Shown: piece after piece, positions 1,462 to 43,550 of the stretch
How positions within the stretch are numbered: position 1 is the stretch's first letter
Layout: every line of letters starts with the position of its first letter
Source: Bacteroidetes bacterium RIFCSPLOWO2_12_FULL_35_15
GTDB taxonomy: Bacteria; Bacteroidota; Bacteroidia; 2-12-FULL-35-15
Reading direction: 5' to 3'
Length of the DNA: 63,065 nucleotides
Assembly: GCA_001769385.1 (NCBI GenBank)
Contig: MEPB01000072.1
Span: forward strand, 1 to 63,065
Notes under the pieces: generated by a model
Seen by the model: the letters and a program-made list of their open reading frames with translations, nothing else
Told to the model about the DNA's origin: nothing
Database searches by the model: none
Position numbers and translations under genes: made by a program

Positions 1462-4056
1462 CTATTTCTCCTTTTTGAGGAACATCCGTGTTTTTAACTT
1501 TTTTTCTATTTCAACTGCCCAAAATACGATGCTTGATACAAGAATCGTAACGCCTAATTCGTAAATAGTGAGCGGATATGTTTTGAAAATAGTATTAAAA
1601 AAAGGAGTATAAATTATCATAAATTGCAGAGCAACGGTTAGCAGCAACGCCACTAACAACGGTTTATTAGAAAACACCCCTATTTTGAATATAGATTCGC
1701 GTTCTGAACGGATAGCCATTACATGACCCAACTGACTAAAACATAAAACTGTAAAAGCCATCGTTTGCCAATGCGAATTCCCATAGTGTATTGAATAAGC
1801 CTGCATTCCAAGAGTTACAATACCCATTAAAAATCCTACCCAAAAGATATGTATGGCCATGCCACCGGAAAAGATATGCTGCTTTGGATTTCTTGGAGGG
1901 CGTTTCATAATGTTTGCTTCCGCTGGTTCAGAAGCAAGTGCCAAACCCGGCAAGCCATCTGTTACCAGATTTATCCAAAGAATATGTATTGCCAATAGCG
2001 GTATTGGTAAACCGAAAAATGGGGCTAGAAAAATGGCCCATATTTCACCTGAATTTCCGGTCATAATATATTTGATAAATTTCAAAATATTATCAAATAT
2101 TCTTCGTCCGTGTTTTATAGCGACTACGATGGTGGCAAAATTATCGTCAAGCAAAATCATGTGTGAGGCTTCTTTTGAAACTTCTGTTCCGTTAATACCC
2201 ATGGCAATTCCAATGTCGGCATTTTTAAGTGCCGGTGCATCATTCACGCCATCCCCTGTCATTGCAACAAAGTGATGCATGTCTTGTAAGGCACTGATGA
2301 TTTTTAATTTTTGTTCGGGGTTTACCCTCGCATACACCCGTACTTTTTCGACAATTTTTTCAAACTCTTCCTGACTTAATTTACCAAGTTCAGAACCGCT
2401 CAACACCATATCCTCTTCCGAAGTAATAATTCCCAATTGTTTTGCAATTGATTTAGCGGTGAGTTTGTGGTCACCCGTAATCATCACCGGAATAATTCCG
2501 GCTTGTTTACATTCTTCTACAGCCTGTTTTGCTTCATCTCTTGGCGGGTCAATCATTCCAGCAAAACCTATTAATGTTAATGATGATTCTAGTTCATCCG
2601 TATTTATTTTTTCAGGCAAAGATGGAAGAATCTTTATTGCATAAGCCAATACCCGATACCCTTTCTCTGCCATCTCATTTACTTTGAGTTCAAATTCCGG
2701 AATACGTGATTTTTGATTGTCGATTAGTTTTTCAAACAATACATCGGCCGCACCTTTTGTAATTGCAATTATTCCATTTTCAATTTGATGCAAGGTAGTC
2801 ATGCACTTTCTGCTTGAATCAAACGGCAACTCAGCCACTCTTGGATATTTTTTTTCTAATTCGGTTTTTTCACTATTTTTATCAAAAGCATATTGAACCA
2901 GGGCCACTTCGGTTGAATCACCAACAAACTTCCCTTCTTTGTTTTTTGAAACATCATTGTTGAGAGCCATTGCATTAAATAAGGCATTCCCTTCTGTAAA
3001 AACAGATTTATATTCTTTATCAGATGTTTCAAAAATTTCCTGCACTGTCATTTTATTCAGCGTGAGTGTACCCGTTTTATCGGAGCAGATATAAGTAATT
3101 GAGCCAAGCGTTTCAACTGCAGGCAGTTTTCTGATAAGGGCATTGTTTTTCACTAATCGCTTTGCTCCAAATGCAAGCGCAATAGTTACAAGTGCAGGCA
3201 ATGCTTCAGGTATAGCTGCAACGGCAAGCGAAATGGAGGTAAGAAGCATAGCTATAAGCTCTTCACCGCGTAACCAACCGAAAAGAAATATTATGGTGCA
3301 AATCACCAGTATTACAATGGACAATCTTTTACCAAAAGCTGCTAACCTTTTTTGTAAGGGTGTTGTTGTTTCATCGGTTTGAATCATTTTAGCAATGTGT
3401 CCGAGTTCAGTATTCATACCTGTTTCGGCTACATAAGCATGCGCACGGCCATTTGTAATAAATGTTCCTTTGAACCCCATATTTTTCCTGTCTCCAAGCA
3501 CATAATCACTTTCAGGAAGTTCCTTTGAATCCTTTTCAACATTATGCGACTCGCCCGTAAGTGCTGATTCATCAACTTTAATTTGATGCGCTTCAAAAAA
3601 ACGAACATCAGCAGGAATGATATTTCCGGTTTCAAGCAAAACAACATCTCCCGGCACTAAATCGGAGGCTGGAATTTCAAGTGCGTTTCCTTTTCGCATA
3701 ACTCTGGCATTACTTGCTGCCATGTTTTTTAATGCTTCCATCGCTTTCTCGGCACGATACTCTTGTATAAATCCAACAACAGCATTAAGAATAACGATTG
3801 CAAGAATAATTATTGTATCCGTTACATCGCCAATAATGCCCGAAATAATTGCCGCTGCAATAAGAATGAGAATCATAAAATCTGTGAACTGGTATAGCAA
3901 CTTCTGCAAAAAAGTTTTCTTTTTTTTATCGGCAATTTTATTTTCCCCGTATTCAGAGAGTCGTTGTGTAGCAGTTGTGTTATCAATGCCTGATGGACTT
4001 GTCTTTAATAACTGAGATATTTCGGACAGAGGTAATAAGTGCCAATTTTGTTTCAT
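1462..4056 (-). CDS. calcium-transporting P-type ATPase (P2 type)
   Basis: The 864-aa protein has the full P2-ATPase layout: N-terminal cation-ATPase domain with PSGIDNTTATQRLSEYG, two membrane helices, the actuator motif DESALTGES, the M4 motif AAIPEALPALV (PEALP, Ca2+ site), phosphorylation site CSDKTGTLT, nucleotide-binding KGAADVLF, hinge AMTGDGVNDAPALKNADIG, and six C-terminal helices. It pumps Ca2+ (possibly Mn2+) out of the cytoplasm. A Ca2+/Na+ antiporter gene ends 6 bp upstream on the same strand, so the two probably form one ion-homeostasis operon. Length and motifs look intact. Confidence 0.95.
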   Translation of the reverse strand: MKQNWHLLPLSEISQLLKTSPSGIDNTTATQRLSEYGENKIADKKKKTFLQKLLYQFTDFMILILIAAAIISGIIGDVTDTIIILAIVILNAVVGFIQEYRAEKAMEALKNMAASNARVMRKGNALEIPASDLVPGDVVLLETGNIIPADVRFFEAHQIKVDESALTGESHNVEKDSKELPESDYVLGDRKNMGFKGTFITNGRAHAYVAETGMNTELGHIAKMIQTDETTTPLQKRLAAFGKRLSIVILVICTIIFLFGWLRGEELIAMLLTSISLAVAAIPEALPALVTIALAFGAKRLVKNNALIRKLPAVETLGSITYICSDKTGTLTLNKMTVQEIFETSDKEYKSVFTEGNALFNAMALNNDVSKNKEGKFVGDSTEVALVQYAFDKNSEKTELEKKYPRVAELPFDSSRKCMTTLHQIENGIIAITKGAADVLFEKLIDNQKSRIPEFELKVNEMAEKGYRVLAYAIKILPSLPEKINTDELESSLTLIGFAGMIDPPRDEAKQAVEECKQAGIIPVMITGDHKLTAKSIAKQLGIITSEEDMVLSGSELGKLSQEEFEKIVEKVRVYARVNPEQKLKIISALQDMHHFVAMTGDGVNDAPALKNADIGIAMGINGTEVSKEASHMILLDDNFATIVVAIKHGRRIFDNILKFIKYIMTGNSGEIWAIFLAPFFGLPIPLLAIHILWINLVTDGLPGLALASEPAEANIMKRPPRNPKQHIFSGGMAIHIFWVGFLMGIVTLGMQAYSIHYGNSHWQTMAFTVLCFSQLGHVMAIRSERESIFKIGVFSNKPLLVALLLTVALQFMIIYTPFFNTIFKTYPLTIYELGVTILVSSIVFWAVEIEKKLKTRMFLKKEK

Positions 4057-12627: not shown

Positions 12628-12688
12628 ATCTACAAACCTATAAAATTATCTCTAAACTTTCTTAAAGAAGTAAACCTAGCGTACTGCT

Positions 12689-12777
12689 ATTTAACATAAT
12701 AGCCTATGTTATAAGACATTTCATGTGTGAAGTTTTCGGGTGGGAGAAATGCTTTTATAACAAGTATTATGTTAATG
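12689..12777 (+). repeat. palindromic site 1
   Basis: ATTTAACATAATA opens the site and TATTATGTTAATG closes it; inner arms GTTATAA and TTATAAC, then CATTTC and GAAATG, pair further in. Its 3' half reads TTTTATAA-CAAGTA-TTATGTTAA, which resembles a dif site with a 6-bp centre. Flanks of about 50 bp upstream and 75 bp downstream are shared with site 5. Confidence 0.75.
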
Positions 12778-12850
12778 CAGATTAGGAAAAAGTATGGTAG
12801 ATTTTTTCCATTAAAAATAAGAAAGAAAAATCAACAACTTTTGTGTGGGA
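12778..12850 (+). repeat. conserved 75-bp downstream flank, copy 1
   Basis: The stretch contains GTAGATTTTTTC followed by an A-rich run and GAAAGAAAAATCAAC, and recurs at 13633-13703 and 14679-14752, each time directly after a palindromic site. No ORF is present in the 113 bp between sites 1 and 2. Confidence 0.7.
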
Positions 12851-12890
12851 TAAGTATCGGTGTGTTGTAAAGGAAGGTATCGGTGTGGCT

Positions 12891-12950
12891 ACTTAACATA
12901 ACAATTAGTTATCGGACTTCTTCGTTCGATAACTGTATTTTATGTTACAT
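12891..12950 (+). repeat. palindromic site 2
   Basis: ACTTAACATAA opens and TTATGTTACAT closes the site. The inner arms GTTATCG and CGATAAC are perfect. It is the shortest complete copy with a diverged interior, so the pairing is conserved while the sequence is not, as in attC sites. Confidence 0.72.
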
Positions 12951-13080
12951 AGAAAAGGCAAGTGGGAGGGGTAATGAAGCTCCGAAACTAAAAACCTTTT
13001 CTTGATTTATGTAGTCGCTATATTATTTATTTTAATATTCTTCACAAGCATGATTGTTTGTGTTGTTATAGCTGTTGCAT

Positions 13081-13470
13081 CTATCGAAAAGCCATGTGGA
13101 AAATCTCTTTCAAAAGCTCAAATAGATAATAAAGTGATGCAATCGATGCAGAAATCGCCAAAACCCAAGTTAGGCGTAAAGTTGTTTTTCCCATGTCCTC
13201 CACATTGGATTGAATTTTAGACAATTCTTTGTTTTTGAGTTTATTAAATTCAATATTCCCGTCAGTCGTAATTTCAAAAGCTAAATTATTTTTATTTTCT
13301 ATTCTTTGTTGAATATAATTCTTTTTTAATAAATCACTTTTTGCATTATCATAATCAAATTTTGTAATTTTTAACGATTTCCTAATTTCATCTTCGGTTG
13401 AATTTATCTCATTAGGATATTCATTAAGATACCAAAGTATATCGTATAATATTTTATCATTTTCATTCAT
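13081..13470 (-). CDS. winged-helix-like protein with a C-terminal membrane helix
   Basis: The 129-aa product starts MNENDKILYDILWYLNEYP and has a helical N-terminal half resembling a winged helix (TEDEIRKSLKITKFDYDNA then a beta-hairpin LAFEITTDGNIEF), a polar linker, and one membrane helix near residues 98-120 (LTWVLAISASIASLYYLF). It lies between palindromic sites 2 and 3 on the opposite strand to their orientation. I do not know its family; a membrane-tethered regulator or antitoxin is possible. Confidence 0.65.
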   Translation of the reverse strand: MNENDKILYDILWYLNEYPNEINSTEDEIRKSLKITKFDYDNAKSDLLKKNYIQQRIENKNNLAFEITTDGNIEFNKLKNKELSKIQSNVEDMGKTTLRLTWVLAISASIASLYYLFELLKEIFHMAFR

Positions 13471-13542
13471 CCCGCAAACCTACAAAACGAACTTAAATTA
13501 ATAGCAGAATAGAAGATATATTTTTGTACTCACTGTGCGTCT

Positions 13543-13632
13543 GCTTAACATAATAGCCTATGTTATAAGACATTTCATGTGTGAAGTTTTCGGGGTGGGA
13601 GAAATGCTTTTATAACAAGTATTATGTTAAGA
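13543..13632 (+). repeat. palindromic site 3
   Basis: GCTTAACATAATA opens and TATTATGTTAAGA closes the site. Its interior is almost identical to site 1. The preceding GCGTCT is shared with the partial site 7. Confidence 0.75.
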
Positions 13633-13703
13633 TAGCTTTGGTAAAATCGAGTAGATTTTTTCAGTTAAAAATGAGAAAGAAAAATCAATCGGTTTTTGTG
13701 GGG
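13633..13703 (+). repeat. conserved 75-bp downstream flank, copy 2
   Basis: This matches 12778-12850 and 14679-14752 with scattered differences and ends just before the start of the 96-aa ORF. Confidence 0.65.
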
Positions 13704-13729
13704 TGCGTGAGGTTTATTATATTTACGGA

Positions 13730-14020
13730 ATGAATAATATTTTCAGTATAATAGGATTATTTTTAGATATAGTAGGTGTTGTAATCCTGTTTTCTTATGG
13801 GTTACCGAGTAAAATAGACAATGAAACTCCAAGAAGAACAATTAGCGAAGAAGAACAAAAAACATTATTGAGAGAGAAATCTAACAAAAAAATAAAGAAA
13901 ATAGCAAAGTTTGCTTTGCTTCTTATTATTCTCGGGTTTGTATTTCAACTTTGTTCCCCAATTATCTCTATTTATAACGATAAAACCACTGACAACAAAC
14001 CAAAATGTAATAATCCCTAA
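13730..14020 (+). CDS. small membrane protein with two helices, 96 aa
   Basis: From the ATG at 13730 the product has a helix at the N-terminus (IFSIIGLFLDIVGVVILFSYG), a charged middle with RRTISEEEQKTLLREKS, and a second helix (IAKFALLLIILGFVFQL). An upstream GTG/ATG extension to 13703 is less likely. Small two-helix proteins of this pattern are frequent orphans in Bacteroidota. It lies between sites 3 and 4 in cassette orientation, that is, its 3' end points to the next site. Confidence 0.6.
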   Translation: MNNIFSIIGLFLDIVGVVILFSYGLPSKIDNETPRRTISEEEQKTLLREKSNKKIKKIAKFALLLIILGFVFQLCSPIISIYNDKTTDNKPKCNNP

Positions 14021-14112
14021 AGGAATACATACCCATTTAAATAAAAACCATTCTAATTCCATTTTTAACCCGTAACCCGAGCGGAGCAGGGTGGCTCTTT
14101 TTTTGTGCGGCA

Positions 14113-14185
14113 GTTTAACATAACGTTTATTATTTTTCAAAGTTCTTTTTTCACTTTGTGGAAATAATAACGCATTATGTTACAT
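14113..14185 (+). repeat. palindromic site 4
   Basis: GTTTAACATAACG opens and TTATGTTACAT closes the site, with AATAATAA-type inner arms and a loop rich in CAAAG/CTTTG that pairs again. The sequence differs from sites 1 and 3 while the fold is kept. Confidence 0.72.
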
Positions 14186-14246
14186 AGCTTCGGTTTGTGG
14201 GAAGCGTATAAAATTTCGTAGTGCGGTGGGTTGTGGTGAACTAAAT

Positions 14247-14276
14247 AAAAAACCTCTGATATTTCTATCAAAGGTT
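14247..14276 (-). terminator. terminator of the 30-aa ORF
   Basis: On the minus strand AACCTTTGATA pairs with TATCAGAGGTT around a GAAA loop and is followed by six T. It lies about 25 bp after the stop of the small ORF at 14300-14392. Confidence 0.7.
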
Positions 14277-14299
14277 AAAATTTCAAAATCAAATTTTTC

Positions 14300-14392
14300 T
14301 TATTTTTTTAATGCTATAATCAATAAAATTATAGCCAAAACCAACTTCGTTAATTTAACGAAATCAATTTCAAAGTTGAAGTTTGTTTTCAT
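14300..14392 (-). CDS. single-helix membrane miniprotein, 30 aa
   Basis: A minus-strand ORF starts MKTNFNFEIDFVKLTK and continues as one hydrophobic helix ending IIALKK. A good terminator follows. The amphipathic start, single helix and dedicated terminator suggest a real gene. It lies in the segment between sites 4 and 5. Function unknown; a type I toxin-like or other membrane peptide is possible. Confidence 0.5.
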   Translation of the reverse strand: MKTNFNFEIDFVKLTKLVLAIILLIIALKK

Positions 14393-14517
14393 CTTTGATT
14401 GCTGGTGTTACAATAGATTGGCTGTTAAATTGGTCGCCACATACGCCAAGATTGTTTATAAGGATGCTATTTCTTTATAAACGCACTCAATTTTAGGGTA
14501 ATCAAGAAACCCAGCTT

Positions 14518-14548
14518 AAAAAAACCGCTGTGGAATAGCGGTTTTTTT
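14518..14548. terminator. bidirectional terminator-like hairpin
   Basis: AAACCGCT (14522-14529) pairs with AGCGGTTT (14537-14544) around a 7-nt loop and has A and T runs on both sides, so it can act on either strand. It separates the small ORF region from site 5. Confidence 0.65.
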
Positions 14549-14612
14549 ATTGTTACAAACGTACAAAATTATCTCATAACTTAATAAAAAGAAGTAATCC
14601 TAGCGTGTGGCT

Positions 14613-14678
14613 ATTTAACATAATATACGCTATTATAAGACAATATTTGATTGTTTTATAATAGGTATTATGTTAATG
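14613..14678 (+). repeat. palindromic site 5
   Basis: ATTTAACATAATA opens and TATTATGTTAATG closes the site, with inner arms CTATTATAAGACAAT and ATTGTTTTATAATAG. The 3' half reads TTTTATAA-TAGGTA-TTATGTTAA, again a dif-like half with a 6-bp centre. Confidence 0.75.
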
Positions 14679-14752
14679 CAGATTTGGTAAAAGTATGGTA
14701 GATTTTTTCAATTAAAAATAAGAAAGAAAAATCAACAACTTTTGTGCTGGGG
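14679..14752 (+). repeat. conserved 75-bp downstream flank, copy 3
   Basis: This is the third copy of the flank seen after sites 1 and 3. With the upstream flank (14556-14606 versus 12632-12681), sites 1 and 5 share about 200 bp in all. No ORF lies between sites 5 and 6. Confidence 0.65.
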
Positions 14753-14792
14753 TGCGCGAGAGTGTGAGTACATAAAAGGTTTTTGTGTGGCT

Positions 14793-14879
14793 ATTTAACA
14801 TTAATATTTATTATAAGAAATTTCAAATGATTTTTTTGTGTGAATTTGAAATGTTTTATAATAGTGTGTTATGTTATAC
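14793..14879 (+). repeat. palindromic site 6
   Basis: ATTTAACATTAATA opens and TTATGTTATAC closes the site. The inner arms TTATAAGAAATTTCAAAT and ATTTGAAATGTTTTATAA are long and nearly perfect. Confidence 0.72.
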
Positions 14880-14940
14880 AGCTTAGGCTTTTTAGAAAAG
14901 CTTTCTAAAAATCATATGCGAGGGCAGAAAACTAAAACTT

Positions 14941-15162
14941 ATGTCATTGTTTTCAGAAGAAACATTAAACCAAATAGAACATGGAACAGAAGATTGCACT
15001 ATGTCTATTATGGTATTCGATTTAGAAGCTAAAATTGAAGACGGGAAAGCTATTATCATTAAAGTTCCAAAGGCGATTCATCTTGAATTAACTTCAGAGA
15101 GTCGTAAAGTTCTTGTAGCTTTAAATAAGTGTGTGGGAGAAAGTTATCCTTCGATATTTTAA
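14941..15162 (+). CDS. small hypothetical protein, 73 aa
   Basis: The product (MSLFSEETLNQIEHGTEDC, ending CVGESYPSIF) is soluble and acidic with no known motif. Its leader ends ACTAAAACTTATGTCATT, which is repeated at the start of the 61-aa ORF at 15221. It is the first ORF after site 6. Confidence 0.5.
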   Translation: MSLFSEETLNQIEHGTEDCTMSIMVFDLEAKIEDGKAIIIKVPKAIHLELTSESRKVLVALNKCVGESYPSIF

Positions 15163-15183
15163 ACGATTAGGCTCAATGCTTTT

Positions 15184-15223
15184 TAAAGGATTAATAAAAT
15201 TAATATAAAAACTAAAACTTATG
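15184..15223 (+). repeat. shared 38-bp ORF leader, copy 1
   Basis: The leader runs through GGATTAATAAAATTAATAT and ACTAAAACTTATG into the start codon of the 61-aa ORF. It recurs with one or two changes at 15676-15714. Conservation right up to the ATG but not beyond points to a shared expression signal. Confidence 0.65.
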
Positions 15224-15406
15224 TCATTATTAACAATAGAAATATTATCTGATAATTCAGTTAAAATAAATTCAACTGAATTATTTAAAGAAATAGATGG
15301 AAAGGAACATAAAGTTACATCTGTAATTTTAGACCACAAAGATTTTATTAATATGTTGAACGAGGATATTAAAAAAGGTGTTGTTAGGAATTTTACCGAT
15401 TCTTAA
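15221..15406 (+). CDS. small hypothetical protein, 61 aa
   Basis: The product starts MSLLTIEILSDNSVKINSTE, is soluble and of no known family. It converges on the minus-strand ORF 15393-15620 with a 14-bp tail overlap. The same layout is repeated 490 bp further on. Confidence 0.5.
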   Translation: MSLLTIEILSDNSVKINSTELFKEIDGKEHKVTSVILDHKDFINMLNEDIKKGVVRNFTDS

Positions 15407-15620
15407 ACAATTCTTCAAGTTCTTTATAAATTGATTCAGGAATTTCTTTAGAAATTTTACTATCAAGCATAAAAACAAATTTATCATCAATTTCGATAAA
15501 TTTGATAGATGACTTAAAAACTTGTTCGTGTGTTAAATTAATTTCATTTGAATCAATTTTTTGAATTAATAAATTAAGCAACTTAGACTTAAATTCATTA
15601 AAATTTTGGTTGGTTTTCAT
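15393..15620 (-). CDS. small hypothetical protein, 75 aa (MxTNQN family)
   Basis: The N-terminus MKTNQNFNEFKSKLLNL matches MNTNQNLFELNLHLAEL of the ORF at 15899-16087, so the two are paralogues. The rest is helical and charged with no known domain. It is paired tail to tail with the 61-aa ORF. Confidence 0.5.
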   Translation of the reverse strand: MKTNQNFNEFKSKLLNLLIQKIDSNEINLTHEQVFKSSIKFIEIDDKFVFMLDSKISKEIPESIYKELEELFKNR

Positions 15621-15647
15621 TGTTGGTTTTGAAGGCTAACACTTTAC

Positions 15648-15676
15648 AGGTATCGGGTAGGTCCGATACCTTTTTT
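15648..15676 (+). terminator. terminator-like hairpin
   Basis: AGGTATCGG (15648-15656) pairs perfectly with CCGATACCT (15663-15671) around six bases and is followed by T6. It lies just before the second copy of the 38-bp leader. Confidence 0.7.
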
Positions 15677-15714
15677 AAGGATTAATAAAATTAATATAAA
15701 AACTAGAACTTATG
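15676..15714 (+). repeat. shared 38-bp ORF leader, copy 2
   Basis: This near-identical copy of 15184-15223 ends in ACTAGAACTTATG, the start of the 65-aa ORF. Confidence 0.65.
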
Positions 15715-15909
15715 ACAAGCTTATTATTTTTATTAGTAGGTATTTTAATCGGATTTTTCCGGAAAGAATTTCAGATAGAACGAAGAAGAAAAAACTTCGA
15801 AATAGAAAAGAAATTAATGTTAGAAAAATCCGATTATGAATTCGAAAGAAGTCAGCGAATTTTAGCTGAAAGCACTAAAGAGTTTTTAGCATCAAGAACT
15901 AAGGAATAA
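15712..15909 (+). CDS. membrane-anchored coiled-coil miniprotein, 65 aa
   Basis: An N-terminal helix (LLFLLVGILIGFF) is followed by a long charged helix (EFQIERRRKNFEIEKKLMLE and onward). The unrelated 61-aa ORF uses the same leader. It overlaps the minus-strand ORF 15899-16087 by 11 bp at the tails. Confidence 0.5.
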   Translation: MTSLLFLLVGILIGFFRKEFQIERRRKNFEIEKKLMLEKSDYEFERSQRILAESTKEFLASRTKE

Positions 15910-16087
15910 TTTTATACTTTGTTCTTGCAATGAATCTCTGTTTTGCAAGTTCATCATTTAGTTTAAATGATAGATTAAGATTATTTAAAGCAACAATTTC
16001 AATAATTGCTTTCTCATAAGTCAACACTTTTGCTTCTAGCTCTGCTAAATGCAAGTTTAATTCAAATAAATTTTGGTTGGTATTCAT
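15899..16087 (-). CDS. small hypothetical protein, 62 aa (MxTNQN family)
   Basis: Starting at the ATG at 16087, the product MNTNQNLFELNLHLAELEAK is helical and a paralogue of the 75-aa ORF at 15393-15620. A longer frame to 16210 exists, but the paralogue supports this start. Confidence 0.5.
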   Translation of the reverse strand: MNTNQNLFELNLHLAELEAKVLTYEKAIIEIVALNNLNLSFKLNDELAKQRFIARTKYKIIP

Positions 16088-16116
16088 TGGTATTTGTGAA
16101 ACCAGCTTTTTAGAAG

Positions 16117-16146
16117 GCATCGGATTAGGCTCTGATGCTTTTTTGA
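16117..16146 (+). terminator. terminator-like hairpin
   Basis: GCATCGGA pairs with TCTGATGC (8 bp, one G-T) around TTAGGC and is followed by T6. A related but weaker version (GATTAGGCTCAATGC) follows the 73-aa ORF near 15165. Confidence 0.6.
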
Positions 16147-16232
16147 TTTCAATATAAATGTAATCTGCAAAACAGTTATTGTTAATTCCGTAGCGACAAT
16201 TTAGCCACAAGAGATAAGCCTGGAAAGCGTCT

Positions 16233-16260
16233 GCTTAACATAATATTAATTGTAAGACAC
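16233..16260 (+). repeat. palindromic site 7 (5' half only)
   Basis: GCGTCT and GCTTAACATAATATTAATTG match the start of the other sites, but no closing TTATGTTAA follows within 150 bp. It marks the right end of the array, probably truncated. Confidence 0.6.
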
Positions 16261-16692: not shown

Positions 16693-17421
16693 ATGACTGT
16701 TGCAAAAACTATAAGCAATCAAATTCAAAAGCTTGAACCTGGAATTCTTTTTACTTATCAGGATTTTAAAGTAGCTCCAAATGCAATGGAAGCTATGGCT
16801 GCTGCATTATGTAGATTGGCTTCAAAAGGTATTATCAAGCGTTTTGGAAGAGGGAAATATTTTAAACCAAAAGAAGGTGCATTTGGCGCGGTTCCACTGC
16901 AAGAAAATCAAATCATTGAATCCATTATAAAAGACAATGGCATTTTAACTGGTTATATTACCGGATCAGCAGCTTATAATAAAATGGGCTTAACAACTCA
17001 AATGTCAAATGAATACACCATTGCAACGTATGAATTCCGCAAACCCTATCAGAAAGGACGAATAAAGGCAAGGTTTGTAAAGGCATATTGTGATATAACA
17101 GAAACAAATATTCCGTTGCTTCAACTATTGGATGCTTTCAAGGATATTAGGAGCATTCCGGGAACAGAAACAAATAATGCTCTTGAATTACTAAAATTAA
17201 AAGTTGAAAAACTATCTTTGGGCGAGCAAACTAAACTTGCTCAATTGGCTTTAAATTATCCCCCGGCAACAAAGGCTTTAGTAGGTGCAGTATTGGAAGC
17301 AGGGATTGACAAAAAAGCATCTGAAAAGCTGTATAAATCGTTAAATCCTTTGTCGAAATATACGCTCGGAATTAAGGAAAGTATATTGCCTAACAAGGAT
17401 AAATGGAAAATAAAAGGATGA
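16693..17421 (+). CDS. AbiEi-like antitoxin / DUF6088 family protein
   Basis: The 242-aa protein has an N-terminal winged helix (PGILFTYQDFKVAPNAMEAM, then LASKGIIKRFGRGKYFKP) and a middle domain with GYITGSAAYNKMGLTTQMS, typical of the DUF6088/AbiEi type IV antitoxin group. These repress their own operon and counter an AbiEii nucleotidyltransferase. Its TGA overlaps the ATG of xerD. The likely toxin partner (18377-19333) lies on the other side of xerD, which is unusual since the pair is normally adjacent. Confidence 0.8.
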   Translation: MTVAKTISNQIQKLEPGILFTYQDFKVAPNAMEAMAAALCRLASKGIIKRFGRGKYFKPKEGAFGAVPLQENQIIESIIKDNGILTGYITGSAAYNKMGLTTQMSNEYTIATYEFRKPYQKGRIKARFVKAYCDITETNIPLLQLLDAFKDIRSIPGTETNNALELLKLKVEKLSLGEQTKLAQLALNYPPATKALVGAVLEAGIDKKASEKLYKSLNPLSKYTLGIKESILPNKDKWKIKG

Positions 17422-18317
17422 ACTGGAAAATATACATAAACGGCTTTAAATCCTACCTTACTTTGGAAAGGTCATTGTCGGATAACTCTATTGGAGCCTA
17501 TCTGCAAGATGTTCAGAAATTAGTCCAGTTTTTTGAGTTAAAAAAAATAGATATTTTGCCAAAAGATGTTCAGTTAAATCATTTGCAAGATTTCCTAAAA
17601 TATATAAATGAACTCAATATTAGCGCACGTTCGCAAGCTCGAATAATAAGTGGCATAAAGGGGTTTTATAAATATTTATTGTTAGAAAATATATTAAACA
17701 TTGATCCAACTGCTTTATTAGAATCACCTCGTTTGGGTCGCAAGTTACCGGATACCTTGAATATAGGAGAGATCAATAAAATCATTGATGCCATTGACTT
17801 AAGCAGTCAGGAGGGGCAACGAAATAAAGCAATGATCGAAACTATGTATAGTTGCGGTTTGAGGGTAAGTGAATTAGTAAATTTGAAAATCTCTCATTTG
17901 CATTTTAATGATGGCTTTGTAAAAGTTACCGGTAAAGGCGATAAGGAACGATTAGTGCCAATCGGAAGAGTTGCTATGAAGCAAATCGACATTTACAAAG
18001 ACGAAGTTCGTTGTCACTTCAAAGTACAAAAGAATAATGAAGGTGTTTTATTTTTAAATAACAGGGGCGCAAAGCTCTCAAGGGTCATGGTATTTATCAT
18101 TATAAAACGACTGGCAGTTAAAGCAGGAGTTAAAAAAAAGATAAGCCCTCATACATTTCGTCATTCTTTTGCCACAGATTTAATTGAAGGAGGTGCAGAT
18201 CTTCGGGCAGTGCAGGAAATGCTTGGGCATGAATCCATTACAACAACAGAAATTTATACTCACCTTGACCGTGATTATTTGCGTCACGCAATCCTTCAAT
18301 TTCACCCACGGTCATAA
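17418..18317 (+). CDS. xerD: tyrosine recombinase XerD
   Basis: I place the start at the ATG at 17418 (ATGA overlap with the antitoxin gene), giving 299 aa. An in-frame ATG at 17403 is possible. An N-terminal SAM-like core-binding domain (about 1-90) precedes the catalytic domain with R149 (GLRVSEL), K173 (GKGDKER), H245 and R248 (HTFRHSFA), H271 (LGHESI) and nucleophile Y280 (YTHLD). The ending LDRDYLRHAILQFHPR is characteristic of Bacteroidota XerD. There is no IntI-specific insertion. It normally resolves chromosome dimers at dif with XerC. Sites with XerD half-sites occur 1-5 kb to its left. Confidence 0.92.
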   Translation: MNWKIYINGFKSYLTLERSLSDNSIGAYLQDVQKLVQFFELKKIDILPKDVQLNHLQDFLKYINELNISARSQARIISGIKGFYKYLLLENILNIDPTALLESPRLGRKLPDTLNIGEINKIIDAIDLSSQEGQRNKAMIETMYSCGLRVSELVNLKISHLHFNDGFVKVTGKGDKERLVPIGRVAMKQIDIYKDEVRCHFKVQKNNEGVLFLNNRGAKLSRVMVFIIIKRLAVKAGVKKKISPHTFRHSFATDLIEGGADLRAVQEMLGHESITTTEIYTHLDRDYLRHAILQFHPRS

Positions 18318-18376
18318 TGAATTTTGAGAAATCTTAGAATAAACTAAACGCCAAACAAAGATTATAGAAAACCAAT

Positions 18377-19333
18377 ATGAAGTTACATCACAATAAAGAA
18401 GTCTTTGCCGAAGCAATTGTATCTACCGCTGAATATCTTGGAATTAAAGAGGTTTTTATAGAAAAGGATTATTGGGTTACTTATGTCCTTAAAAATTTAT
18501 CACAGTCAAAACATAAAGGCACTGTCGTATTTAAGGGGGGTACATCACTTTCAAAAGCGCACCGATTAATAAACCGCTTTTCAGAGGACATTGATCTTGC
18601 TATAATTCAGACTGGAGGAACATCAGGAAATGCTATCAAAAATCTGATAAAAGATATTGAGATAGAAATTACACAAGGACTTAACGAACATACAATACCC
18701 GGAATTACGAGCAAAGGATCTAAATTCAGAAAGACCGTTTTTGAATATCCGAGAGTGATTGTTGGAAATGATTTCGGGCAGGCACAGGATAAACTATTGG
18801 TTGAAATAAATTCCTTCGCCAATCCTTATCCGTATAGCGAAATGCCTATTCAAAGCATGATCGCTGATTTTCTTCTACAAAATGGGAGGAAGGAAGCATT
18901 AGAAGCTTTTGAGCTGAAGGCATTTAATGTCAATGTTCTTGGACTTGAGCGAACATTGACGGAAAAAGTTTTATCATTGGTAAGAGCTGGTTATGCTGAA
19001 AATCCAATGGCAGAGTTAGCTGCAAGGGTTCGCCATATTTACGATTTACATTTTATTTTAAGTAAATCAAACATGCGTGAGTTCGTTTCCGGTGAAGGGT
19101 TTAAAGAAATAATAAAAGATGTGTTGGCTGATGATGAGAGTAATAGCCAGTTTCAAGGTGAATGGACTAAAAAGCCATTAACAGAATCTCTATTGTTTGC
19201 TGACTGGAAAAAAGTATGGAAACAATTACAACCCGTTTATGAAAATGAATTTAAAACATTAGTGTTTTATAAATTACCCGACATTAAAGCTATTGATGAA
19301 TCAATTGAGTTCATAATAAAATCAATAGTATAA
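18377..19333 (+). CDS. AbiEii/AbiGii-family nucleotidyltransferase toxin
   Basis: The 318-aa protein carries the nucleotidyltransferase signature FKGGTSLSKAHRLINRFSED-IDLAI (GG-T-S followed by DxD) at about residues 53-77. It belongs to the group that includes the type IV toxin AbiEii, whose characterised relatives transfer nucleotides to tRNA acceptor ends. The partner antitoxin-like gene is 16693-17421, with xerD in between, so all three may be one operon (59-bp gap here). It may act in abortive infection. Confidence 0.87.
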   Translation: MKLHHNKEVFAEAIVSTAEYLGIKEVFIEKDYWVTYVLKNLSQSKHKGTVVFKGGTSLSKAHRLINRFSEDIDLAIIQTGGTSGNAIKNLIKDIEIEITQGLNEHTIPGITSKGSKFRKTVFEYPRVIVGNDFGQAQDKLLVEINSFANPYPYSEMPIQSMIADFLLQNGRKEALEAFELKAFNVNVLGLERTLTEKVLSLVRAGYAENPMAELAARVRHIYDLHFILSKSNMREFVSGEGFKEIIKDVLADDESNSQFQGEWTKKPLTESLLFADWKKVWKQLQPVYENEFKTLVFYKLPDIKAIDESIEFIIKSIV

Positions 19334-19538
19334 AAACATCTTCATTAGTTTTAGATGCTGTTTCTTTTCAGATAATTTTGTTTTAATTTGTTTTTCGATA
19401 GATTTTAAAGGTTTTGTGTGTTTTAGCAAGATTTTTATTTGAATTTATTAAGATTCGCGTTATTTTTTTTGGTTGGACATCAACTTTCATTTCTAGTTCA
19501 TTGAAAATCGTATATTTAGACAACTATTTTGCAATCAA

Positions 19539-21929
19539 ATGACAGAACCAATTATTCATATAACTAACAATGACAGTGAAGCCGACACCTGCCGAAAAGA
19601 TGTGTTGCCTAAAATCTATGCAAGCGACTGGACTGATGAACAAATTATAGAGCAACGGACTTTCACTGATGGGAAAATTGTTGTGTTAGGAAGAAAAGCA
19701 AAAAGAAAAAAAGCGAAACGCTTTGACTACTTACTTCGCTACTCACAAAACTTCCCACTTGCAATCGTTGAAGCTAAGGTAAAATACAAAGAGGCAGCAG
19801 ACGGAATTCAGCAAGCAAAAGATTACGCAAAAATTTTAGGATTAAAATTCGCTTACAGTACAAACGGTATAGACATTTTAGAATTTGACTTTCTTACTGG
19901 ACTTGAAAAAAAAGTTATAAAGTTTCCTACTCCAACGGAGCTGTGGAACAGGTTAAATTCAGTTGAGCCAGTTAAAGCGGAAATTCAAGAAATATTTCTA
20001 AAACCATTTTTTACTGTTGCAGGAAAGGAAATTCGATATTACCAACGCATTGCAATCAATACAGCTGTCAAAGCAATTTTAGAAGGACGCAAAAGAGCTT
20101 TACTAACACTTGCAACAGGCACGGGAAAAACAACAGTTGCGTTTCAAATTATTTACAAGCTTTGGAATAACCGTTGGAACATTAAAGGAGAATATCGCAG
20201 ACCGAAAATTTTATTTATTGCAGATAGAAGCATTTTAGTTACAGACCCGCACGCAAAAGATTTTGCTGTGTTCGGAGATGCAAGGTGTCTAGTTCCTGAT
20301 GAAGGCTTGCCAAGTAGCAGAGAAATTTATTTCTCCACTTATCAATCATTAGCTGAAGATGAAAACAGAGTAGGGGCATTTAGGAATTTAGCTAGAGATT
20401 TTTTTGATTTGATAGTTATTGACGAGTGCCACAGAGGAAGTTCAACAGAAGATAGCAATTGGAGATTAATCCTTGAGTACTTTAATACTTCTGTTCAGTT
20501 GGGCTTAACCGCAACTCCGTTGCGTGAAGACAACAAAGACACTTATCAGTATTTTAAAAACCCTCTCTACACATACAGTTTGAAGCAAGGAATTGAAGAT
20601 GGATTCTTAGCACCTTATATTGTACATCGTGTAGTTCCAGAACCTGATGCAACAGGTTGGCGACCTCAAGCAGGACAGGTTGATGATAACGGAGTTTTAA
20701 TTCCAGACGGAATTTATACAACAACAGATTTTGAAAGTTCTCTTTCCTATTTGCCAAGAACAAAAGCCGTTGTAAAACATCTTCACGACTTCATGTTGAA
20801 GAACGGACGGTTTGATAAGACAATTGTGTTTTGCGTAAACCAAAGCCATGCTGACGATTTCCGCAGAGAATTCAGTAATTTGAATACTGATTTGGTTAAA
20901 CAATATCCCGACTATGTTGTGAGAATTGTTGCAGATGAAAAAGAGATAGGCAAAGGTCATTTAGGGAAATTTATGGACATTGACGAACCTATTCCTGTTG
21001 TAGTAACTACTTCACGGCTTTTAAGCACAGGTGTTGATGTGCAGACGTGCAAGAACATTGTTTTGTTCAGAATGGTAAATTCAATGACAGAGTTCAAACA
21101 AATTATAGGCAGAGGAACAAGGGTAAGAGAGGACAAAGAGAAATTATTTTTTACCATACTTGATTACACAGGAAGTGCAACAAGAAATTTTGCCGACCCA
21201 GACTTTGATGGAGAACCACCGCTGATAACAGAAGAAGAAATTGACGAAGATGGAAACACAATACCGGGAACAGAAAAAGATTTTCCAGCCCCTCCATCAC
21301 CTAATGACGATGAGGAAGATGAAAAACCAAAGCCACCACCAACAGGCGGTGGTGGAAGGACAGTCTATCGTATCAGCGAAGGTGAAGTACGGATTGTAGC
21401 AGAGAGCGTTCAAATACTTGGAGCAGATGGAAAATTGAGAACGATTCAGTTTACTCAATATGCCAAAGAACAAATCACAATTTTATTCCCTTCTGAAAGC
21501 GAATTGAGAAACAAATGGGCCAACAGCGAAGGAAGAAAAGAAATTATTGAGCAATTGGAGAACAACGGAATTTCTATTGAACAACTTATGGACATTACAA
21601 AACAAAACGAGTCTGACCCGTTCGACTTGCTTTGTTTTGTTGCCTACAATTTAAAACCTAAAACTAGAAAGCAAAGAGCAGATTTATTGAATAAAAACAA
21701 ACCTGATTTCTTTTCCCTTTACAGCGAAAAGGCACAGTATGTTTTACAAATGATTTTAGAAAAATACGTTTACTTTGGTTTAAACCAAATAAGACCTGAC
21801 ATCATTTCAGCCGAACCGATAAGGCAGGAAGGAAATGAAATTGAAATTGTGAATGAGTTTGGCGGGATGGATAAATACAAACAAGCGATAGAACAGTTAC
21901 AAACATTGCTTTATACGGAAGCAGCATAG
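19539..21929 (+). CDS. hsdR: Type I restriction endonuclease subunit R (EcoEI-like)
   Basis: The 796-aa protein has an N-terminal PD-(D/E)xK nuclease (D63 in RFDYLLRY and E78-A-K80), a superfamily 2 helicase with Walker A GTGKT (194-198), DECH (295-298), LGLTATPLR and motif VI QIIGRGTRVRE, and a C-terminal EcoEI_R_C-type domain. It translocates DNA and cleaves it when unmethylated sites are met. The length fits the short EcoEI/EcoR124-like HsdR group. HsdM follows after 9 bp. Confidence 0.95.
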   Translation: MTEPIIHITNNDSEADTCRKDVLPKIYASDWTDEQIIEQRTFTDGKIVVLGRKAKRKKAKRFDYLLRYSQNFPLAIVEAKVKYKEAADGIQQAKDYAKILGLKFAYSTNGIDILEFDFLTGLEKKVIKFPTPTELWNRLNSVEPVKAEIQEIFLKPFFTVAGKEIRYYQRIAINTAVKAILEGRKRALLTLATGTGKTTVAFQIIYKLWNNRWNIKGEYRRPKILFIADRSILVTDPHAKDFAVFGDARCLVPDEGLPSSREIYFSTYQSLAEDENRVGAFRNLARDFFDLIVIDECHRGSSTEDSNWRLILEYFNTSVQLGLTATPLREDNKDTYQYFKNPLYTYSLKQGIEDGFLAPYIVHRVVPEPDATGWRPQAGQVDDNGVLIPDGIYTTTDFESSLSYLPRTKAVVKHLHDFMLKNGRFDKTIVFCVNQSHADDFRREFSNLNTDLVKQYPDYVVRIVADEKEIGKGHLGKFMDIDEPIPVVVTTSRLLSTGVDVQTCKNIVLFRMVNSMTEFKQIIGRGTRVREDKEKLFFTILDYTGSATRNFADPDFDGEPPLITEEEIDEDGNTIPGTEKDFPAPPSPNDDEEDEKPKPPPTGGGGRTVYRISEGEVRIVAESVQILGADGKLRTIQFTQYAKEQITILFPSESELRNKWANSEGRKEIIEQLENNGISIEQLMDITKQNESDPFDLLCFVAYNLKPKTRKQRADLLNKNKPDFFSLYSEKAQYVLQMILEKYVYFGLNQIRPDIISAEPIRQEGNEIEIVNEFGGMDKYKQAIEQLQTLLYTEAA

Positions 21930-21938
21930 AAAATTAAA

Positions 21939-23516
21939 ATGGCAAAAAAGAAAATAGAAAAAGTTATAAAGCAAGAAACACCTGCACAACGACTTTCGGG
22001 AATAATAAAATCGTGTAGGAATACCATGCGTAAAGATAAAGGTATGAACGGTGACGGAGACCGTTTACCTATGCTCACATGGATTATGTTTTTAAAATTT
22101 TTGGACGACAACGAAAGTTTGCAAGAAACACAAGCAGCTTTGAAAAATAAAAAATACAAAGCCGCTATTGCAGAACCGTATCGTTGGAGAGATTGGGCAA
22201 AGGATAAAAATTTGACAGGAGATGATTTACTTTCTTTCATCAACAACGAGAAAGTAAAATTGGCTGATGGAAAAGAAAAAACAGGTTTACTTTATTATTT
22301 GCGAGGACTACAAAGTGAAACAGGAACAGAACGCAAAGATGTAATTGCAACAGTTTTCAAAGGTGTTACTAACCGAATGATTAACGGTTACTTGTTGCGT
22401 GATGTAGTGAATAAGATTGATGAAATACATTTTACGAACAACGAAGAAACAAACACACTCTCTCATTTATACGAAAGCATCTTGAAAGAAATGAGAGATG
22501 CAAGTGGAGATGCAGGCGAATTTTACACGCCACGACCAGTTGTAAAATTTATGGTTGAAATGCTTGACCCTAAAATTGGGGAAACAGTTCTTGACCCTGC
22601 GAGCGGAACAGGAGGATTTTTAGTTTCAGCATTTGAGCATTTAAAGAAGCAAGCAAAAACAGTAGAGCAACAAGAAATTTTGCAAAGCAAATCAATCATT
22701 GGAGGCGAAGCTAAACCACTTCCCTACTTGCTTTGCCAAATGAATTTATTGTTGCATGGTTTGAACTACCCGAACATTGACAGTGGAAATAGTTTACGGA
22801 AACCGCTTCGTGATATTGGCGACAGTGAGAGGGTTAATATTATTTTAACCAATCCACCTTTCGGTGGCGAAGAAGAAAAAGGAATCTTAAATAATTTTCC
22901 TGATGATAAAAAGACCGCAGAAACCGCTTTGCTTTTTCTGCAACTCATCATGCGAAAATTGAAAAAGAAAAAACCCGATCAGGAAGGTGGCAGAGCAGCA
23001 ATTGTAGTTCCTCACGGAACTTTGTTTGCTGATGGAATTGCAGCAAGAGTAAAGAAACAGTTGATTGATGAATTTAATTTGCATACGGTAGTGCGTTTGG
23101 GCGAAGGCATATTTGCACCTTACACAGACATTGCTTGCAACCTTTTGTTTTTTGAACAAGGCGAACCCACAAAAGATATTTGGTATTATGAATTGCTTCC
23201 ACCTGATGAAAGAAAAAAATACAGCAAGACAAAGCCAATACAGTTTGAAGAATTTGACGAAATAAAAAAGTGGTGGAACAAGCGTAAAGAAAATGACAAC
23301 GCTTGGAAAGTAAAACTGAAAACGGTTTTGCTTACTGATGATGAAGGCAAATTACTGAATGTAAATCTTGATGTAAAAAACCCAAACCGTAAAAGTGATT
23401 TGGAATATCGTGAACCAACAGAATTGATTTCTTCAATAGTTGGGAAAGAAAAAAAGGTAATGCAATTGATGAAAGAAATTGAAACAATAATCAGCGAAGA
23501 AGTTTCTGCAAAATGA
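21939..23516 (+). CDS. hsdM: Type I restriction-modification methyltransferase subunit M
   Basis: The 525-aa N6-adenine methyltransferase has an HsdM N-terminal domain, then GEFYTPRPVVKFMVEML, motif I DPASGTGGF (219-227) and catalytic motif IV NPPF (305-308). It methylates host DNA with HsdS and forms the restriction complex with HsdR. Its stop overlaps the HsdS start by 4 bp (ATGA), so translation is coupled. Confidence 0.95.
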   Translation: MAKKKIEKVIKQETPAQRLSGIIKSCRNTMRKDKGMNGDGDRLPMLTWIMFLKFLDDNESLQETQAALKNKKYKAAIAEPYRWRDWAKDKNLTGDDLLSFINNEKVKLADGKEKTGLLYYLRGLQSETGTERKDVIATVFKGVTNRMINGYLLRDVVNKIDEIHFTNNEETNTLSHLYESILKEMRDASGDAGEFYTPRPVVKFMVEMLDPKIGETVLDPASGTGGFLVSAFEHLKKQAKTVEQQEILQSKSIIGGEAKPLPYLLCQMNLLLHGLNYPNIDSGNSLRKPLRDIGDSERVNIILTNPPFGGEEEKGILNNFPDDKKTAETALLFLQLIMRKLKKKKPDQEGGRAAIVVPHGTLFADGIAARVKKQLIDEFNLHTVVRLGEGIFAPYTDIACNLLFFEQGEPTKDIWYYELLPPDERKKYSKTKPIQFEEFDEIKKWWNKRKENDNAWKVKLKTVLLTDDEGKLLNVNLDVKNPNRKSDLEYREPTELISSIVGKEKKVMQLMKEIETIISEEVSAK

Positions 23517-24661
23517 AAAATTGGATTCCATATCGTTTAGGTGATTTTCTTGAAAGAAAGCATGACAGCGTTTCCGTTGACAGCTTTACCAAATACAAAC
23601 GCATCACAATTAAGACCAAAGGGCAAGGCATTGAATTGAGAGACGAAGTTGAAGGAGTTGACATAGGAACAAAGAATCAATTCATGGCAAATCAAAATCA
23701 ATTTTTACTTTCTAAAATTGATGCAATGAATGGCGCATTTGGAATTGTTCCAGAAGAATGTGATAAAGGAATTATTACAGGCAACTTTTGGACTTATGAC
23801 ATAAATGAAAAAATAATTGACAGAGAATATTTGCGATTGCTTTGCATCAAACAAGAGTTTACAAAATTCAGTTTAGAAGCAAGCGAAGGAACAACGAACA
23901 GAAGATATTTGAGAGAGAATAAATTTCTTAATCTCCCTATTTCCCTTCCACTAATTCCTGAACAACAACGCATCGTTTCAAAAATTGAAAGTGTAAAGCA
24001 ACAGCTTGAACAGATAGAAAAGTTAAGAGCGGGGCAAACCAAAGACATCAAGAATTTGCTTTTCAGCAAATATACCGACTTAATTGAAGTTGCTGAATGG
24101 TTGCCAATGAAAGAAGTTGCTCCCATCATAAGACGAGAAGTAAAATTAAATGATGAAGCGCTTTACCCCGAATTAGGAATTAGATGTTTTGGTAAAGGAA
24201 CATTTCACAAACCAGCATTAACTGGGTTAGAAGTTGCAACAAAAAAAATATTTCAAATCAAACAAGGTGATTTGGTTTTTAGTAATGTGTTTGCGTGGGA
24301 AGGTGGAATTGCAGTAGCCAAAGAAGAAGATAATGACCGTTACGGTTCACACCGTTTTATTTCTTGTGTAGCTCACAAAGAAAAAGCGTTGGAAGAATTT
24401 TTATGTTTTCATTTTCTATCTCCAAAAGGTTTGGAAGATATAAATGCTTGCAGCCCCGGAGGAGCAGGAAGAAATAAAACATTAGGCTTGGATAAGCTAA
24501 TGAAGATAAAAATTCCGGTTCCTGACTTTACTTCGCAAAAAGAATTTGTAGAATTGTTACATAAAGTAAATGCTATCAAAAATCAACACACCGAAATAGA
24601 AAAGGAATTAAATCAACTTATGCCTGCCTTGTTGGATAAGGCATTTAAGGGAGAATTATAA
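23513..24661 (+). CDS. hsdS: Type I restriction-modification specificity subunit S
   Basis: The 382-aa protein has two target-recognition domains, each followed by a coiled-coil: PLIPEQQRIVSKIESVKQQL at about 145-165 and FTSQKEFVELLHKVNAI near 340-360. The conserved ending LMPALLDKAFKGEL is typical of HsdS. It sets the bipartite recognition sequence, which cannot be deduced here. KwaA starts two bases after its stop, so restriction and Kiwa genes are transcribed together. Confidence 0.93.
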   Translation: MKNWIPYRLGDFLERKHDSVSVDSFTKYKRITIKTKGQGIELRDEVEGVDIGTKNQFMANQNQFLLSKIDAMNGAFGIVPEECDKGIITGNFWTYDINEKIIDREYLRLLCIKQEFTKFSLEASEGTTNRRYLRENKFLNLPISLPLIPEQQRIVSKIESVKQQLEQIEKLRAGQTKDIKNLLFSKYTDLIEVAEWLPMKEVAPIIRREVKLNDEALYPELGIRCFGKGTFHKPALTGLEVATKKIFQIKQGDLVFSNVFAWEGGIAVAKEEDNDRYGSHRFISCVAHKEKALEEFLCFHFLSPKGLEDINACSPGGAGRNKTLGLDKLMKIKIPVPDFTSQKEFVELLHKVNAIKNQHTEIEKELNQLMPALLDKAFKGEL

Positions 24662-24663
24662 GA

Positions 24664-25227
24664 ATGAAACCAAGAATATTTACAGCCGTATTACTTTTCA
24701 TTAGTGCATATTCGCCACTGTTCTTGATATTGGCGGTAAAAGATTTTGATTTCAAAATCTCACACCAATTAAACCATCCATTACCTATCTATATAATGTT
24801 AGGTGTTTCAGTGTTAAGCATCGTTTTGCTTTTCGTGTCAGTTGCCAATATGAAACGAGGTAGTATGGGTGTAGAAATTGTTTCTGTAAAAAACCGTTCG
24901 GTTGATTTAATCAACTACACCATTCCTTATATGCTTTCATTTTTTGGAATTGATTTATCAAAACCAGAAGATGTTATTTCAATTTCCATTTTTTTACTAA
25001 TAATGTTATTGCTTACGATCACTAGCAAATCCGTTTTCCTCAATCCTATTTTAGCAATTGTCGGTTACGGCTTGTATGATTTGGAATATAAGTTTGACGG
25101 GAAAGTATTTTCAACAATCGTCATTTGCAAAGACGAGTTGCACACGGGAGAGCGTTATTACATACACAGCTTAACCCGTTTTTTATATTTCGTAACACAA
25201 AAAGTAAATCAAGAAGATGCCTCATAG
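24664..25227 (+). CDS. kwaA: Kiwa defence protein KwaA (four-helix membrane protein)
   Basis: The 187-aa product has four membrane helices (near IFTAVLLFISAYSPLFLIL, IYIMLGVSVLSIVLLFVSV, ISISIFLLIMLLLTITS and VFLNPILAIVGYGLYDL) and a short soluble tail, matching KwaA in size and layout. In characterised Kiwa systems KwaA is the inner-membrane partner that holds KwaB at sites of phage attack. Its 3' end overlaps the next gene by 11 bp. The assignment rests mainly on its pairing with a DUF4868 protein. Confidence 0.8.
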   Translation: MKPRIFTAVLLFISAYSPLFLILAVKDFDFKISHQLNHPLPIYIMLGVSVLSIVLLFVSVANMKRGSMGVEIVSVKNRSVDLINYTIPYMLSFFGIDLSKPEDVISISIFLLIMLLLTITSKSVFLNPILAIVGYGLYDLEYKFDGKVFSTIVICKDELHTGERYYIHSLTRFLYFVTQKVNQEDAS

Positions 25228-26152: not shown

Positions 26153-26157
26153 CTGTA

Positions 26158-27429: not shown

Positions 27430-27635
27430 ACTTCACAAGGAGCTTGTATTTGCAATGATATACACAAGTAATTGTAGATAAGTTCAGTTTCATCATTTGT
27501 AACCCTTCCAATTATTCTTAACTTTGCTTTATGTGCAAGAAATAAAAATGCTTTACGGAAAAATGAATGCAAATGCTTTAATGAAACACACATACATTAA
27601 CTATCCTTAGTGTTAAGAATTTTTAACTTTGTAAT

Positions 27636-28610: not shown

Positions 28611-28613
28611 AAA

Positions 28614-31157: not shown

Positions 31158-31222
31158 TTTGTTTTAAAAGATGTTTACAATAAAAAGTAAATTCCATATT
31201 ATTACACAAAAAAGATAGATAA

Positions 31223-43546: not shown

Positions 43547-43550
43547 TTGA

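Follow-up and report, generated by a model that had tools for sequence, protein, structure and literature searches.

Passages of a study of the phage CTXphi (PMC3089051) describe two inverted dif-like sites with unequal centres, which pair on the plus strand into a single site, attP(+); for integration, XerC catalysis suffices and a single pair of strands is swapped with dif, which leaves a functional dif in place. In excerpted text, Escudero et al. 2016 (PMC4792948) set out a chicken-and-egg paradox for integrons, in which the I2 domain of the integrase needs attC and attC needs I2, and suggest elements that exploit the Xer system as possible ancestors of integron cassettes; part of a later paper (PMC7790495) repeats this scenario and names the missing intermediates as its limit. 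Here we describe an array of hairpin sites and short segments, headed by a dif-like site and a duplicate of XerD, on contig C72 of Bacteroidetes bacterium RIFCSPLOWO2_12_FULL_35_15. The window that we analysed covers all 63,065 bp of this contig, one of the 110 that make up a 5.39-Mb genome. We found no account of arrays of this kind in the open-licence full texts of PMC, a scope that leaves out preprints and the majority of subscription papers. Our preferred reading, to which we give an even chance, is that the array is an integron-like platform for gene cassettes, built of Xer/dif parts, with cassettes that would be captured as folded single strands at dif.

The array comprises six hairpin sites, s1–s6, and a dif-like site, s7 (Table 1). 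Folded as single-stranded DNA, s1–s6 gave z-scores from -3.53 to -6.11, which none of 200 shuffles equalled; s7 did not fold (z -0.46, 69 of 200 shuffles equally good). In each hairpin, the paired XerD half-sites lie outermost, followed by a short, partly unpaired centre, the paired XerC half-sites inside it, and a variable loop. The preliminary description, made from the sequence alone, had proposed palindromic sites with inverted dif/Xer arms, a shared fold in which varying inner arms still pair and loops differ, short intervening segments as in cassettes, and no integron integrase. These points hold: six hairpins within 12691–14877 fold far better than shuffles, segments of 117–1355 bp separate sites of one polarity, and no protein of the genome exceeds the cut-off of TIGR02249, the IntI model. 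Two of its statements need correction. The seventh site, taken for a half site, is complete and dif-like and lies on the minus strand, and the closing motif, said not to match GTTRRRY, does so as the minus-strand R box (R') in all seven window sites (six hairpins and s7), though in just 18 of the 50 distinct sites of the wider family considered below. It also overlooked a XerD paralogue just past the seventh site. The R'' box RYYYAAC occurs in none of the six window hairpins and in 8 of the 50 family sites, and the sites do not show the attC combination of R' GTTRRRY with R'' RYYYAAC. A standard attC/IntI integron was rejected, since both an IntI above the cut-off and this combination of boxes are lacking.

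Table 1. Positions of the sites, segments and genes of the array and its surroundings, with the Rhs-associated loci of the wider site family
Feature	Position	Strand	Remarks
s1	12691..12775	-	Hairpin, two inverted dif-like arms; strand is the cassette sense
s2	12893..12948	-	Hairpin
s3	13545..13630	-	Hairpin, nearly identical to s1
s4	14115..14183	-	Hairpin
s5	14615..14676	-	Hairpin; outside its left arm, the dif flank AGCCACAC of G006, G016 and G018 in exact reverse complement
s6	14795..14877	-	Hairpin
s7	16233..16260	-	Complete dif-like site, centre TTAATA; in place of attI
129-aa ORF	13081..13470	-	Cassette sense; segment s3-s2 (595 bp); no Pfam match over cut-off
105-aa ORF	13703..14020	+	GTG start; opposite to cassette sense; segment s4-s3; no Pfam match over cut-off
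Segment s6-s7	14880..16234	.	1355 bp; small ORFs in both senses
ORFs of segment s6-s7	14941-15162	+	
	15221-15406	+	
	15393-15620	-	
	15712-15909	+	
	15899-16102	-	
AbiEi-like antitoxin gene	16693..17421	+	DUF6088; PADLOC AbiEi
xerD2	17403..18317	+	XerD paralogue of 304 aa with its catalytic residues; exceeds the TIGR02225 cut-off
AbiEii-like toxin gene	18377..19333	+	
Rhs-associated loci			L164, L169, L210, L212-L214, L219, L222-L224, L228, L231, L238, L239

The arms were compared with the dif of the genus, as the preliminary description had suggested, in a set of 36 congeners (family- and order-level samples gave the same 36 genomes). The pattern ATAA-N6-TTATGTTAAAT matched at 23 places in 22 of them. 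Eighteen of these places, one per genome, have the centre TTAATA (14), TAAATA (3) or TATATA (1), and we presume them to be the chromosomal dif; the XerC half is TTGTCTTATAA or at most two changes away from it in 12 and differs more in its outer part in six. The remaining five places look different (G003, G021, G031, G033 and a second place in G005, which is a hairpin site). The sequence AGCCACACGC comes after dif in G006, G016 and G018. An exact reverse complement of AGCCACAC stands before the left arm of s5 and also before that of a site on C9, elsewhere in the genome of the window, and s2 and s6 differ from this dif flank by one mismatch in 19 bases. A scan with a 6-nt spacer and at most five mismatches in the 22 positions of the XerC and XerD half-sites of the genome's own dif found six dif-like sequences in the window, all inside the interval first reported, whereas 630,650 bp of mononucleotide shuffles gave six matches, or about 0.6 per window. 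The arms match the XerC and XerD half-sites of the genus dif, with a conserved outer flank. Judged by sequence, the two arms of every hairpin form a dif-like inverted pair, and two inverted dif-like sites able to fold into one are what characterizes single-strand integrative mobile elements exploiting Xer (IMEX) of the CTXphi type. Across 66 sites, both arms keep the dif geometry of TATAA, a centre mostly of 5–7 nt, and TTATG, with centres often unequal in length between the arms. Beyond TTATG the arms are coupled only at +2 (z 6.5) and +6 (z 2.7); inward, positions -1 to -3 and -6 are coupled and -4 and -5 are not.

At the head of the array, s7 reads GTGTCTTACAA-TTAATA-TTATGTTAAGC on the minus strand. 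It differs from the genome's dif at 4 of 22 arm positions and at none of the six centre positions, TTAATA being the common dif centre of the genus. Read along the minus strand, the order is xerD2 pointing left, s7, and then segments of 1355, 118, 431, 484, 595 and 117 bp, each closed by a hairpin whose polarity is the same throughout. As in integrons, the segments are thus each ended by a hairpin site of one polarity, as shown by the six sites of the window and two of G018. Both G018 open reading frames (ORFs) and the 129-aa window ORF lie in the cassette sense, and the senses of the other window ORFs are mixed. None of the eight cassette ORFs scanned had a Pfam match over the cut-off. PADLOC gave weak matches only (best LmuC, E 0.002, and WH_III-A, E 0.0011), and nine cassette ORFs compared with PHROGs matched only weakly, to families of unknown function (phrog_3999 at best, E 1.6e-4, with the 79-aa ORF of G018), and gave no phage or mobile-element genes. 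Within the 1355-bp segment, a 48-nt repeat, 94% identical between 15179–15226 and 15670–15717, leads into each of two ORFs, at 15221 and 15712, and part of it also stands ahead of the ORF at 14941.

The clearest case of cassettes directly at a presumed chromosomal dif is that of G018, in which dif, a 139-aa ORF, a hairpin, a 79-aa ORF and a second hairpin follow one another in a single sense. One of these two sites agrees with s1, s3 and s5 on the R'' side and over some 75 bp past it, and the other resembles s4; the window and G018 have two hairpin types in common, downstream flanks included. At the C9 place stands the genus dif consensus itself. Sites adjoin the presumed chromosomal dif in G018 and C9, and the dif-like s7 in the window. 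Sites supported by the covariance model R2 (see below) were present at only these two, G018 and C9, of the 18 dif loci. At the other dif loci searched, the best R2 match (E 0.0036) took in the dif itself, and hairpins reported at G024 and G025 by our own dif-locus scanner (three arm mismatches each) were set aside as they had no R2 support. For nine of the 18 sites in the genus, placement at a dif is not established. Also next to dif, in three genomes, is a 197-aa protein family, F7 (L044 9444–10037, and G011 and G017), which reads away from it and had no PHROGs match; it is possibly an element that targets dif.

To follow the sites beyond the window, we used two covariance models, R1, trained on the six window sites, and R2, built from 15 sites of five genomes. 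The site counts are floors because the models scored only part of the first-look candidates (128–150 for each genome and 11 in the class search); a repeat of a site on the opposite strand was left out of the counts (2 of 20 rows in the genus search with R2). With 150 of 8760 candidates scored, R1 recovered from its own genome the six window sites, the C9 place and repeats of array sites on the opposite strand. R2 found at least 18 sites in at least 7 of the 36 congeners and, among 396 Bacteroidia genomes of 203 genera, sites in at least 28 genomes and at least 24 genera, with 24 of the 28 genomes outside the genus of the window. In 50 distinct aligned sites, 97.3% of 897 cells were paired, and 114 stem cells had changed on both sides, compared with 32.5 (sd 5.4) in shuffles. 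The covariation score was 0.373, compared with 0.124 in shuffles and 0.044–0.078 in slid controls; part of this signal is built in because the alignment was fitted to the structure. The same bias applies to the count of 47 G-U cells and at most 24 possible A-C cells on the window plus strand, the bottom strand in integron terms, which hints that this would be the folding strand. ORFs on the R'' side, counted as the longest ORF of at least 60 aa within 900 bp and not as annotated genes, read toward the site in 33 of 52 cases and away from it in 6, with no ORF in 13 (the 52 sites include two duplicated pairs).

Other loci show further arrangements of the site. Three contigs of a viral collection (L276, L286 and L294) each carry two sites of the same polarity, 1.2–1.5 kb apart, with ORFs of mixed sense between them. 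Identical sites with their flanks recur in one polarity in L223 (7416 and 14749, 7.3 kb apart) and L224 (2126 and 8875, 6.7 kb), as site-bounded tandem duplications or assembly effects. Further viral contigs, some of about 4–5 kb (L258, L261, L264, L265, L268, L292 and others), have a dif-like site that shares the XerD half and the ATAGCC flank; in these, no second arm was present in the 90 bp shown upstream.

The gene xerD2 lies 1.1 kb beyond s7, on its XerC side, and reads away from it. Its product is 78% identical to the resident XerD (contig C94) and scores 336.0 bits against the XerD equivalog model TIGR02225 (cut-off 329.6), which identifies it as a XerD. Against TIGR02249 (cut-off 265), XerD2 scored 132.3 bits, the resident XerD 125.4, a XerC-like protein 122.9 and a protein of contig C93 209.2, and none of the 14 stretches matched in the genome rose above the cut-off. 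XerD matches at E 1e-60 were present in 34 of the 36 genomes, two in this genome and one in each of the 33 others. In a tree whose outgroup was formed by 10 of 80 loci (G020, G027 and G028 have no full XerD sequence), XerD2 falls among the XerDs of the genus on a branch of 0.46, compared with 0.1 for the resident copy, with weak support for its placement. Between the two copies, dN/dS by NG86 is 0.05, with dS saturated. A conserved AbiEi-XerD-AbiEii unit was rejected, as neither AbiE protein occurs in any of the 80 XerD-relative loci, some of which span only 4–5 kb; R1, with its training limited to the six window sites, found no site in these loci at E 1.

On the preferred reading, a cassette would be a short segment, often with a small ORF, ended by a hairpin of two inverted dif-like arms, and on one DNA strand this hairpin would fold into a single dif-like site. 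One strand would then be exchanged between this folded form and a dif in double-stranded DNA (s7 in the window, the chromosomal dif in G018) by XerC together with either XerD or the dedicated XerD2, and replication would complete the insertion, as for phage CTXphi. A small circle with one hairpin would in this way give the order dif, cassette, hairpin, and repeated insertions would give the orders seen in G018 and the window. Since the dif-like site would stay at the head, later cassettes would enter there, and the array would grow on the XerD side. More tentatively, and with less than an even chance in our estimate, a dedicated XerD duplicate may run cassette capture in the absence of IntI, dif serving as attI and folded pairs of dif as attC; the array would then be a living example of a step by which integrons may have evolved, and folded sites would have spread through Bacteroidota, moving genes by means of the machinery for chromosome-dimer resolution.

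Several results weigh against this account. The scarcity of the R' box in the wider family is one. In the window, ORFs run in either sense in the 484- and 1355-bp segments, and three of the six segments lack any ORF of at least 35 aa. No cassette was found in two places in searches of plasmids, phages and viral contigs: the array DNA had no match in plasmids and phages, the 129-aa ORF had no relative in viral contigs or plasmids, and the G018 cassette ORF tried had none in viral contigs. The other site-bearing congeners have a single XerD and no counterpart of XerD2. In the aligned family, 7 pairs changed on both sides, compared with 6.3 in shuffles (197 of 500 as high), and mapping by arm coupling in the 66 sites gave no clear break, so that the crossover point was not located. 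One-polarity arrays were seen only in the window, G018 and the three viral-collection contigs, and most sites outside the genus were solitary within about 20 kb. Finally, the comparison of G018 with empty sites is weak because the distance of the gene family F0 from dif varies in site-free loci: F0 starts 142–907 bp from dif in G004, G030, G006 and G016, and also 1141, 2861 and 5216 bp from it in G009, G005 and G017, where no site is present, and lies on the other side in G013; in G018 the distance is 3317 bp, with the cassettes and other ORFs in between. The C93 protein as a possible alternative enzyme, the inverted site pairs and the Rhs matches, taken up next, count on the same side.

The sites may alternatively be dif-derived cassette sites moved by another tyrosine recombinase, such as the 547-aa protein of contig C93, which we consider unlikely. 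This protein comes closest of four to the integron-integrase model, and close or partial copies of its type (57–100% identity, in our own grouping) occur in 4 of the 7 site-bearing and 4 of the 29 other congeners. At the search threshold, however, the figures are 5 of 7 and 14 of 29, a weak link; moreover, the gene lies on a separate contig, where R1 found no site, and the arms are XerC and XerD half-sites of the genus dif. This recombinase (L001 1201–2844) has a long N-terminal extension and falls just under two integron-related cut-offs, and the adjoining gene (2972–3310) reads, by eye, as a single-strand binding protein.

Quite unlikely, in our view, is that the sites are repeats like miniature inverted-repeat transposable elements (MITEs) or transposon ends, dif-like at their ends by descent and moved by a transposase. 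Inverted pairs of sites 0.4–1 kb apart, with R' arms facing and outer flanks matching, occur in L169 (two pairs), L213, L214 and L222, which we regard as a different use of the same site. In addition, in other Bacteroidota 22 of the 52 aligned sites lie within 3 kb of a match to the Rhs core, two of them at the query's own locus, and these matches most often read away from the site. The sites of the window and G018, by contrast, have one polarity and start at a dif-like site, and in the aligned family loops and inner arms vary while pairing persists. The preliminary description had named scattered or MITE-like sites as the finding that would speak against its proposal; outside the genus this is borne out in part, by solitary sites and inverted pairs.

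It is distinctly improbable that the sites are scars of single-strand IMEX, such as CTXphi-like or microvirus-like phages and satellites, integrated at dif with no cassette platform. The hairpin fold is that of CTXphi attP(+) in the passages of PMC3089051, and, according to part of PMC3091885, some Bacteroidetes microvirus proviruses have an extra dif-like sequence near one end. Furthermore, one hairpin arm is itself dif-like, with the centre TTAATA, in C9 (L044 9230–9337; 0 of 28 mismatches to the genus dif), L234 (10335–10417) and L235 (1403–1510), as would be expected beside a CTXphi-type insertion. However, the segments of the window and G018 are too short for such phages, the PHROGs matches of their ORFs are weak and of unknown function, and several one-polarity segments at one dif fit repeated capture better. 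That the hairpins are transcription terminators or RNA elements at gene ends is hardly credible: they usually follow an ORF of the same sense, but a terminator-like match was found in s2 alone of the six, on the strand opposite to the cassette sense, no Rfam family, and hence no known RNA family, reached the gathering threshold within the window, and the dif likeness and the flank would be left unexplained.

As to the surroundings of the array, a plasmid origin of the contig was rejected, as it has no terminal overlap of at least 15 bases and carries chromosomal-type genes (cation transport, restriction and others) among 18 proteins scanned. The region beyond the array (16693–35835) is rich in defence genes, with AbiEi, xerD2, AbiEii, HsdR/HsdM/HsdS of a type I restriction system, a KwaB-like gene, a subtilase and NOV_C. 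A run of minus-strand genes at 42521–53486, mostly without a Pfam match among those scanned, includes an endolysin-like glycosyl hydrolase 108 (45279–45929) and might be a phage- or injection-related cluster.

If the preferred reading is true, dif is a locus of gene capture in Bacteroidota. An intermediate on the way to integrons would be expected to have small segments, CTXphi-like folded dif pairs, a dif-like head and a XerD duplicate alongside, and the array, to go by its sequence features, may show how integrons arose. It resembles integrons, and clusters of attC sites lacking integron integrases (CALIN), in the recombinase that points away, the head site, the one-polarity segments each ending in a hairpin, the imperfect hairpins conserved in structure, the small ORFs without known function, and the R box in all window sites. 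It departs from them in lacking an IntI that exceeds the cut-off, in having a XerD as its recombinase neighbour and a dif-like site at its head, in the absence of the R'' box from the window hairpins, and in arms made of XerC/XerD half-sites. The pdif or Xer modules of Acinetobacter plasmids likewise have genes with XerC/XerD sites and, according to part of PMC7399989, are thought to be moved by the host XerCD; there, however, separate XerC/D sites flank a module, whereas here an inverted pair tens of bases apart forms one hairpin per segment end. With CTXphi attP(+) and IMEX, as presented in passages of PMC3089051, the array shares two inverted dif-like sites with unequal centres that can pair into one, and presumably insertion at dif, whereas the segments of the window and G018, at 117–1355 bp, have non-phage ORFs, stand several in a row and, in one array, have a XerD duplicate beside them. 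Overall, the fold is closest to that of CTXphi attP(+), and the layout is closest to that of an integron.

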